Source: Actinomycetes bacterium
GTDB lineage: Bacteria > Actinomycetota > Acidimicrobiia > Acidimicrobiales > SZUA-35
Length of the DNA stretch: 64,000 bases
Direction: 5' to 3'
Assembly: GCA_024280015.1 (NCBI GenBank)
Contig: JAJRQY010000133.1
Location: forward strand, 1 to 64,000
Shown here: piece after piece, positions 24,707-61,283 of the stretch
How positions within the stretch are numbered: the stretch's first letter is position 1
Layout: each line of letters opens with the position of its first letter
Notes under the pieces: generated by a model
Database searches by the model: none
Seen by the model: the letters and a program-made list of their open reading frames with translations, nothing else
What the model was told of the DNA's origin: nothing
Translations under genes and position numbers: made by a program

Positions 24707-24781
24707 GAAGAGATCGTGGGCAACAGGTTTACCTCAAGGGTCTGAGGGAATGGATCAGGGCCTTCATGCGGTTTAGAAGGA

Positions 24782-25549
24782 GTGATCGAGACAGAGGCCG
24801 TCACGGTGCTGAGCTATGTCATTGCTTTCGGTGGTGGGTTGATCAGCTTCGCGTCCCCATGCGTCCTGCCAGTCGTACCCGGGTACTTGTCCCTCATCAC
24901 TGGGCTTGAAGTCAGCGAGCTTCAAGAGTCGAAATCATCCAACAGTTGGACCGTTGTTCGAGACACCAGCCTGTTCATCCTCGGGTTCGGTTCGGTTTTT
25001 GTACTCCTCGGCTTGTCGGCCACCACCATCGGGCAGTTCATCTTCAATCAGCAGATCCTGCTTACCAGGATCTCCGGCGGCCTGGTTTTGGGTATGGCGC
25101 TGTTCATGCTCGGTTCACTCTTCCTGCAAGCTCCGTGGCTCTATCAAGAGAAACGCTTCCAGCCCGAACTGGGCAAGTACGGCCGAGCGGCACCAACCGT
25201 TGCCGGAGTCGCCTTTGGTTTTGGTTGGACACCATGCATCGGACCCATCCTGACCTCGGTCTTGGCCATTGCCGCCGCATCGGGACGAGCAACAACAGGA
25301 GCATCCCTGCTGGCCGTGTACACCCTGGGTTTGGGCTTGCCTTTCTTGATCATGGGCCTGCTCATGAGCCGCCTCACCGGCAGCCTGAACTGGGTCAAGT
25401 CCCACCTGCAACACATTGTGATCGTGTCATCACTCTTCATGGCCATCTTCGGCATCTTGCTCATCCTCAACAAGCTGATCTGGATCACCACCCAACTTCA
25501 GAGTGTCATGCGATCGGTCGGCCTGGAGTGGCTCGTCAATCTTGGCTAA
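24782..25549 (+). CDS. ccdA: CcdA/DsbD-type membrane thiol-disulfide transporter
   Basis: 255 residues, six hydrophobic helices and the two membrane cysteines of the family (FASPCVLPVVPGY near residue 27 and GWTPCIGPIL near 149). It moves reducing equivalents across the membrane to extracytoplasmic thioredoxin-like proteins, for cytochrome c maturation or disulfide repair. The GTG at 24782 follows AGAAGG with too short a gap, so GTG 24806, with GAGG eight bases upstream, may be the true start. The TlpA-like partner gene follows 44 bases later. Confidence 0.88.
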   Translation: MIETEAVTVLSYVIAFGGGLISFASPCVLPVVPGYLSLITGLEVSELQESKSSNSWTVVRDTSLFILGFGSVFVLLGLSATTIGQFIFNQQILLTRISGGLVLGMALFMLGSLFLQAPWLYQEKRFQPELGKYGRAAPTVAGVAFGFGWTPCIGPILTSVLAIAAASGRATTGASLLAVYTLGLGLPFLIMGLLMSRLTGSLNWVKSHLQHIVIVSSLFMAIFGILLILNKLIWITTQLQSVMRSVGLEWLVNLG

Positions 25550-25593: not shown

Positions 25594-26262
25594 ATGTCGA
25601 AGAAGAAGAACAACAATCGATCAACCAAGAAAAGTCCAAAGCAACAATCGCCGGCGAAACAATCAGCTAGGCGAGCTGCCCAGGAAGAACGGCGCCAGCA
25701 CAAGATTAAGAAGGCCAAGCGTGACCGAATCCTTCTGAGTGCCGGAGTAATGGCTGTCGTGTTGGCCGTCATTGCCTTCGCCGTCGTCTCCAGTCGCCCC
25801 GAAACCGGCGAGACCGAGGCAACGGCGTGGGATCTCCCCGCTCTTGATTCGGACCTGGACGATGGAACCAATGGCCGCTTCACCCTGGCCAGCTATGAGG
25901 GCACACCATTGGTGGCGAACTTCTTTGCCTCCTGGTGTGCGGCATGTGAGGGGGAGCTACCAGCATTTCGGGCCGCAAGCGAAGAGTTTGAGGGTGAGCT
26001 GGAGATTGTTTTTGTGAACAGCAACGAGACTGGCAACTGGCGGCCCATGGCTGAACGAACCGGGATCACCGATCAGCCTCTGTTGCGCGACATCAATGGC
26101 GCTGGCGGCAATGGGCTCTACCGGAGCCTCGGTGGGAGCGGCGGCATGCCACTCACCGTTTTCTATGATGCCCAGGGTCGTGTGTTACAGGTTGATCGCG
26201 GCGCTCTCACCACCGAAACACTGGCCGCACGTCTGGACCAGCTCTACGGGATCCGTAGCTAG
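25594..26262 (+). CDS. TlpA/ResA-like thiol-disulfide oxidoreductase
   Basis: 222 residues: a basic, lysine-rich cytoplasmic head, one transmembrane helix (about 60-80), then an extracytoplasmic thioredoxin fold with active site WCAAC in ASWCAACEGELPAF. It probably receives electrons from the adjacent CcdA. A long upstream extension of the frame through ccdA is spurious; ATG 25594 is the natural start. Its TAG stop shares bases with the stop of the convergent HxlR gene. Contrast with the UGA-containing homologue at 60684-61283. Confidence 0.85.
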   Translation: MSKKKNNNRSTKKSPKQQSPAKQSARRAAQEERRQHKIKKAKRDRILLSAGVMAVVLAVIAFAVVSSRPETGETEATAWDLPALDSDLDDGTNGRFTLASYEGTPLVANFFASWCAACEGELPAFRAASEEFEGELEIVFVNSNETGNWRPMAERTGITDQPLLRDINGAGGNGLYRSLGGSGGMPLTVFYDAQGRVLQVDRGALTTETLAARLDQLYGIRS

Positions 26263-60683: not shown

Positions 60684-61283
60684 CTAGCCAGCAAGGAGAG
60701 CTTCCACGCCCTCGGTCAAACCATCAAGGCCAATGGCCCCGTTGTGGGTGGTTGTTGTACCGTCATCATTAATGAAAACGACTGCTGGCTGAGAGCCAAT
60801 GCCATAGGCGAGCCAGACCCCACCCGTGGTGTCGATGGCATGCTCAAAACCATCTACTCCACCAGTGGCAACGAACGATTCATAGGAAGCATCGTCACCC
60901 TTGCCTGCGACACCAATCACGGTGACGTCGGATCCGTACTTTGCTTGCACCTCTGCGACCGCAGGGGCTTCACGTTGACAAGTAGGTCACCACGGAGCCC
61001 AGAACCAGAGCACGACATCTTTCCCCTGCAGGGCACCAAAGTCGATCTGGTCACCGCTAATGGTGGCCAAGACCTCAGTCGAGCGAGCCTGAGGAGCTTC
61101 CTCGGTTGGTGCCGCAGAGTCGTCGGTTGGTGCTGCAGAGTCGTCGGTGCCCTGGGTCGTCAACGGAGCATCGGTACCCGGCTCTGCAGTCTGCGGATCG
61201 GAACCACATGCGCCGGCCACAAGAGCAGCAGCCATCAGAAGGCCAAGAGCCTTCAGTGATGTCTTGGGTGGTGGAAAGTTCAT
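60684..61283 (-). CDS. TlpA/DsbE-like thioredoxin lipoprotein with in-frame UGA at the active site (probable selenoprotein)
   Basis: 199 residues if the UGA at 60989-60987 is read as selenocysteine (residue 99). The first 98 residues are a lipoprotein signal (ALVAGAC), a Thr/Ser/Glu linker and the start of a thioredoxin fold ending in WFWAPW. After the UGA the same frame continues PTCQREAPAVAEVQAKYGS to a normal stop at 60684. The active site is therefore WAPW-U-P-T-C, where homologues have WCPxC. A GGUC-loop hairpin 22-34 bases downstream fits a bacterial SECIS. It acts outside the membrane as a thiol-disulfide oxidoreductase. Alternatives: nonsense mutation of TGC/TGT, or sequencing error; the intact downstream frame and the hairpin argue against both. 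Confidence 0.82.
60949..60968 (-). promoter_or_regulatory. Putative bacterial SECIS element
   Basis: On the minus-strand transcript, starting 19 bases after the UGA: stem CUGC/GCAG enclosing loop GGUC, extended outward by one C-A mismatch and C-G, C-G and G-U pairs. The loop starts 26 bases after the UGA. Bacterial SECIS hairpins begin at similar distances and carry G and GU early in the loop, as in E. coli fdhF (GGUCU). Confidence 0.6.

Follow-up and report, generated by a model that had tools for sequence, protein, structure and literature searches.

A probable lipid-anchored DsbE/DsbF-like selenoprotein and its large family in Acidimicrobiia

Two minus-strand open reading frames (61283-60987 and 60950-60684) share one phase and are connected by a UGA, and we wondered whether they form a single gene in which this codon is read as selenocysteine (Sec). 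Throughout the window, the whole stretch of 64,000 nucleotides that was analysed, coordinates refer to its first letter. The minus strand from 61283 to 60684 is one 199-codon frame, interrupted only by TGA at 60989-60987 (codon 99), which bears out the initial annotation in placing the UGA where the first active-site Cys is expected; ordinary gene finding splits the gene in two at this codon. The coding sequence (60684-61283) starts with ATG at 61283 and ends with TAG at 60686-60684, a reading that follows from the frame and from homologues that read through the same UGA. Residues before Sec99 are VVLWFWAPW and those after it PTCQREAPAVAEV. Codon 99 (60987-60989) supplies the first redox residue of WAPW-U-PTC, and the TGT of codon 102 (60978-60980) encodes Cys, the second redox residue of the UxxC motif, as judged from the sequence and its homologues. 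In the joined 199-aa product, Pfam matches to Redoxin (PF08534, 7e-14) and AhpC-TSA (PF00578, 6.3e-13) are each unbroken across the UGA and a Pfam Thioredoxin match likewise crosses it, in line with the earlier view that the downstream half continues a thioredoxin fold to a natural stop. The read-through protein comprises an N-terminal signal with a lipobox (61206-61283; MNFPPPKTSLKALGLLMAAALVAGA-C26, with LLMAAALVAGA before the predicted lipid-anchored Cys26), a T/A/D/E-rich low-complexity linker and a thioredoxin-fold domain (residues 71-199; 60687-61073). Cys26 is at least 90% conserved (alignment A3) and the lipobox pattern is recognisable in 141 of 170 collected family members. By this pattern, the selenoprotein looks like an exported or membrane-tethered lipoprotein.

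In 39 genomes from the same taxonomic family, a search returned dozens of homologous sequences in which a TGA lies in frame. The closest, in a sister genome of the same genus, is 61% identical, and the majority of the family's other genera likewise have UGA at this residue. Extraction and alignment showed UGA as the first redox residue at 67 distinct sites of this taxonomic family; in the 54 aligned sequences it is invariant. Homologues carry either Sec or Cys at residue 99, the outcome of the alignment that the initial annotation had proposed as a check, and a conserved in-frame UGA where homologues have Cys is the pattern of a bacterial selenoprotein. Including named records, at least 170 distinct family members were collected. 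Scanning the collection for W-F-W-A-P-x-UGA-x-x-[C/U] gave at least 116 stretches, all but a few of which read on as family members; among the scan matches listed, most are Acidimicrobiia records, with some Nitriliruptoria-type and Pseudonocardia records. The host genome itself contains at least three UGA members, namely the gene at 60684-61283, one on contig C55 (WAPWUATC) and one on contig C44 (WAPHUPSC). The locus had been described as an unusual lipoprotein selenoprotein; the selenoprotein part of this description is supported, but the gene is one of a large lineage-wide family and not an oddity. As the genome is represented by one draft assembly, in 175 contigs, the UGA might be suspected to be a Cys codon turned into a stop, either by true mutation or by an artefact, that is, a pseudogene or an assembly error. 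However, the UGA copies in the same genus and in most other genera exclude a sequencing error in practice, and with UGA at codon 99 in 67 distinct family sites and a downstream half under protein constraint, this conservation refutes the pseudogene or assembly-error explanation in practice, leaving it a negligible probability.

Exactly 26 nt after the UGA lies the hairpin CCCCUGC-GGUC-GCAGAGG (60949-60968, minus strand; stem 60968-60961 with 60956-60949, loop 60960-60957). Published limits for bSECIS elements are a loop of 3-9 nt, an upper stem of 4-16 bp, G in the first two loop positions, a spacing of 16-37 nt and an MFE <= -7.5 kcal/mol (PMC13188914); the hairpin falls within them, with its GGUC loop, 4-bp apical stem, 26-nt spacing and -10.7 kcal/mol. 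Folding of the single sequence was not significant as evidence for a SECIS: with a z-score of -1.14 when folded alone, and 29 of 200 shuffles folding equally well, it is weak evidence. That the hairpin is more than chance follows instead from its conserved offset, from compensatory changes and from the freezing of the codons beneath it. For the hairpin type of this gene, we considered the 54 aligned UGA sequences outside a group with the motif WAPH-U, and CGGUC occurs at the identical offset in 54/54. Double-compensatory cells on the alignment number 44 versus 11.4 in shuffles (0/500 shuffles reach 44), and the covariation score is 0.293 versus at most 0.093 for slid stems. In other members, the stem CCCCUGC/GCAGAGG is replaced by CCCCAC/GUGGAGG, CCCCUAC/GUAGAGG or GCCGACGC/GCGUCGGU; in three sequences (L030, L033 and L034), pairing in the common stem register is poor. 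Codons beneath the hairpin are frozen (A+9 GCG 36/36, V+10 GUC 54/54, E+12 GAG 30/30), whereas Ala at -3 and Val at +13 vary freely among three or four codons (V+13 GUC 15/38). As the protein residues PAVA versus PTVV track the stem type, the RNA constrains the protein. The CGGUC was found at the hairpin position in none of six Cys homologues, nor in the other Cys loci examined. A covariance model of this hairpin type (R1) matches the gene in its own genome with E 5e-19 and has strong matches only in genomes with selA. Together, the conserved offset, covariation and published limits uphold the earlier suggestion of a SECIS-type GGUC hairpin at this site.

The WAPH-U group consists of L095 and 12 relatives, for example the copy in the host genome at contig C44:20015-20071. 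Its members carry two short hairpins, the second of which has the loop AGUU(N), lies 34 nt after the UGA and covaries. Hairpin covariation, as expected of bacterial selenoproteins, was thus found both for the type at 60684-61283 and for the WAPH-U type, and both loop classes are presumably read by the same SelB.

The host genome contains a complete set of selA, selB, selC and selD; a lack of selB, selC and selD had been named in the initial annotation as grounds for rejecting a selenoprotein. The tRNA-Sec scores 66.4 bits and is called SeC by ARAGORN, selA and selB form an overlapping pair, and SelB carries the winged helix PF09107. SelD is an established kind of selenoprotein; here, selD (L240, contig C58) is itself a UGA gene (HGAGUGCK), and a GGUC-loop hairpin follows its UGA in both the host genome and the sister genome. 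Across a class-wide draw of 198 genomes, selA is present in 14 of the 15 genomes with a UGA homologue, the exception being 79% complete. One sister genus (g8) lacks selA and yields nothing for selC at the 63-71 bit level, and its selD-like matches are all weak; its homologues contain no UGA among the matches listed, and hairpin matches are absent or at background level. By these comparisons, g8 serves as a natural negative control for the Sec family. Another genus (g7, genome G016) has selA and no UGA copy of the 60684-61283 type among the matches listed, so machinery and family are not one-to-one. As homologues with Cys at the same position exist, a tRNA with a UCA anticodon that is not a selenocysteinyl-tRNA might recode the UGA to Cys, Ser or Trp. 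We consider this very unlikely, as the UCA tRNA scores as tRNA-Sec, the genome also has SelA, SelB and SelD, UGA homologues and selA occur together across genomes and the hairpin is of the SECIS type. Sec incorporation at UGA 99 is, at the level of sequence evidence, strongly supported, and the conserved UGA, covarying hairpin and selABCD together strengthen the original call of a probable selenoprotein.

To which thioredoxin-like enzymes does the predicted selenoprotein belong? The AlphaFold model has a pLDDT of 96-98 over the thioredoxin-fold domain, and the best match by profile, sequence and fold is M. tuberculosis DsbF (profile E 8e-47, 40% identity, rmsd 1.1 A). DsbF (Rv1677, PDB 3ios) and M. 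tuberculosis DsbE (MPT53, PDB 1lu4) rank together as top relatives; both share with the selenoprotein a single-domain thioredoxin fold (TM by target 0.93 for DsbF and 0.90 for DsbE) and are ∼40% identical to it, and DsbF also has WFWAPW-x-PTCQ. Whereas these two proteins have a Cys-x-x-Cys active site, the first Cys is here predicted to be Sec, by a UGA and a downstream SECIS. Because of UxxC in place of CxxC, we call the protein DsbE/DsbF-like and not a plain DsbE/DsbF member, which refines the earlier label 'thioredoxin-like' while retaining its thioredoxin fold. ResA is the next-best fold match. ResA/TlpA/StoA thiol-disulfide oxidoreductases have fold, membrane anchoring and export in common with the selenoprotein but only ∼26% identity. 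No NCBIfam model, including ResA, DsbE-subfamily and TlpA models, reaches its cut-off: ResA NF002854 scores 59.7 bits (cut-off 170), thioredoxin TIGR01068 37.4 bits (cut-off 96.8) and the ResA-like WAxxUGC family NF041054 31.3 bits (cut-off 300).

Sec is reactive in a way that favours the reduction of peroxides, and CcdA usually delivers electrons outward. Sec might accordingly be inserted into an enzyme that is mainly an envelope reductase or peroxidase (TlpA/ResA-like or peroxiredoxin-like) and not a thiol oxidase. The Pfam assignment to Redoxin/AhpC-TSA, the rank of ResA as next-best fold and the frequent adjacency of CcdA to Cys homologues all fit such an enzyme, but the ResA, DsbE-subfamily and TlpA cut-offs are missed, and DsbF and DsbE, the closest relatives with solved structures, are oxidising. 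We regard a mainly reductive or peroxidatic role as a serious possibility that nevertheless falls clearly short of probable. Both Mt-DsbE and Mt-DsbF have oxidative activity (PMC3853704). Overall, we favour, with a probability of roughly nine in ten, an extracytoplasmic, lipid-anchored DsbE/DsbF-type thiol-disulfide oxidoreductase in which Sec replaces the first active-site Cys (UxxC). Its elements, namely the predicted UGA recoding, SECIS-type element, Sec machinery, fold and exported lipoprotein, are well supported by comparative analysis. In the mechanism that we propose, SelB with Sec-tRNA(UCA) would bind the GGUC-loop hairpin just 3' of UGA 99, and the codon would be recoded to Sec in place of release-factor action, with physical insertion of Sec as the presumed outcome. 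In the exported, lipidated protein, the Sec-Cys pair would then swap disulfides with cell-envelope substrates. Like M. tuberculosis DsbE and DsbF, the enzyme may have a net oxidative activity, and its redox state might be reset by a CcdA-type membrane protein or by small thiols.

The gene neighbourhood offers a view of possible redox partners. Conservation of the flanking Na+/H+ antiporter and P450 genes does not extend beyond the genus, and neighbours elsewhere are diverse. Pyridine-nucleotide-disulphide oxidoreductases were rejected as partners, as the neighbours of this type that were checked are lipoamide dehydrogenases; with this identity and the diversity of neighbours, no general partner emerged from the neighbourhood. 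VKOR was likewise set aside, with no match above cut-off in 39 genomes. On actinomycete plasmids, Cys homologues lie directly upstream of ccdA in all four annotated cases, and a CcdA-like sequence adjoins many of the Cys homologues, whereas among 96 longer Sec loci it does so at just four (L116, L152, L163 and L186). A CcdA-type partner is therefore plausible for the Sec lipoprotein and would usually be encoded elsewhere, and the identity of the partner is uncertain. As PF02683 overlooked a CcdA-like gene, detected by tblastn, next to a Cys homologue on contig C100, absences of PF02683 were left unused as a measure of CcdA. The window also encodes a CcdA/DsbD_TM-like membrane protein (24746-25546, plus strand), followed at ∼25640-26259 (plus strand) by a Cys-type TlpA-like thioredoxin (NFFASWCAACEGELPAF). 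This pair resembles a conventional redox pair and is a possible partner in trans.

The gene at 60684-61283 falls within a kind already known, the UxxC thioredoxin-fold selenoproteins, and adds a member to it. Two selenoproteome reviews (PMC9312934, PMC13188914) list a 'Redoxin family protein' (PF08534, UxxC) and a 'Prx-like thiol:disulfide oxidoreductase' (PF00578, UxxC/UxxU) that share the Pfam domains and motif type. These are represented there by one example accession each, the reviews citing the sequences MBA3499694.1 and HEU0032618.1, so the likeness is one of description and not of compared sequences, and neither review mentions Acidimicrobiia. The GOS bin 'Trx-like 1' (COG0526, UxxC; PMC2398784), abundant in marine metagenomes, also holds UxxC thioredoxin-fold selenoproteins but is a broad domain-based bin, without assignment of lineage, lipoprotein or SECIS class. 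Among open papers, none was found that links Acidimicrobiia to selenoproteins in any substantive way, which makes for a weak statement of novelty. An Acidimicrobiia-wide expansion and a subclade of DsbF-like members with UxxU look undescribed in the searchable open papers; what may be new is the scale of the family in Acidimicrobiia, the DsbE/DsbF-like identity and the UxxU subclade. As gene finding splits such genes at the UGA, a large set of exported redox enzymes is easily missed in these mostly uncultured actinobacteria, and the gene studied here is part of this large, little-noticed family. The finding would tie selenium supply to cell-envelope protein folding or redox defence in Acidimicrobiia. 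As a tentative proposal, to which we give somewhat less than an even chance, Acidimicrobiia may possess an envelope thiol-disulfide system built on Sec. Its multi-copy DsbE/DsbF-type Sec lipoproteins would include an old UxxU subclade with a diselenide-based cycle, where a single short hairpin serves to recode both UGAs, nine bases apart; one SelB would read both the GGUC and the AGUU loop class, and part of the protein (PAVA versus PTVV) would be dictated by the RNA stem.

In the UxxU subclade, a second UGA takes the place of the Cys codon equivalent to codon 102. It has 14 members (L035, L038, L039, L040, L042, L044, L067, L073, L077, L078, L079, L082, L083 and L146) with the motif WAPW-U-P-[F/H/V]-U, two UGAs nine bases apart and one hairpin of the same class. 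A tree of the 11 sufficiently long members, built with active-site columns masked, places them in one clade with a single change, and on this tree the subclade is of single origin. Prx-like families are known to include UxxU selenoproteins (PMC9312934, PMC2398784), and the open papers searched contain no report of UxxU in a DsbF-like lipoprotein. The clade provides a natural setting in which to test diselenide redox chemistry and the way in which one SECIS can serve two adjacent UGAs. Other active-site variants occur in the family. A WAPWCSWC copy (L075, genome G006, contig C25) has a Sec copy as its closest neighbour on the tree, which suggests a likely Sec-to-Cys reversal with loss of the hairpin. 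Two deviant relatives (L092 and L093) with the motif WGAHUGIC keep the UGA and have lost the proline before the motif, and L076 and L080 are tandem UGA-containing family genes, WAPWUPTC then WFYAPTUTTC, ∼580 bp apart.
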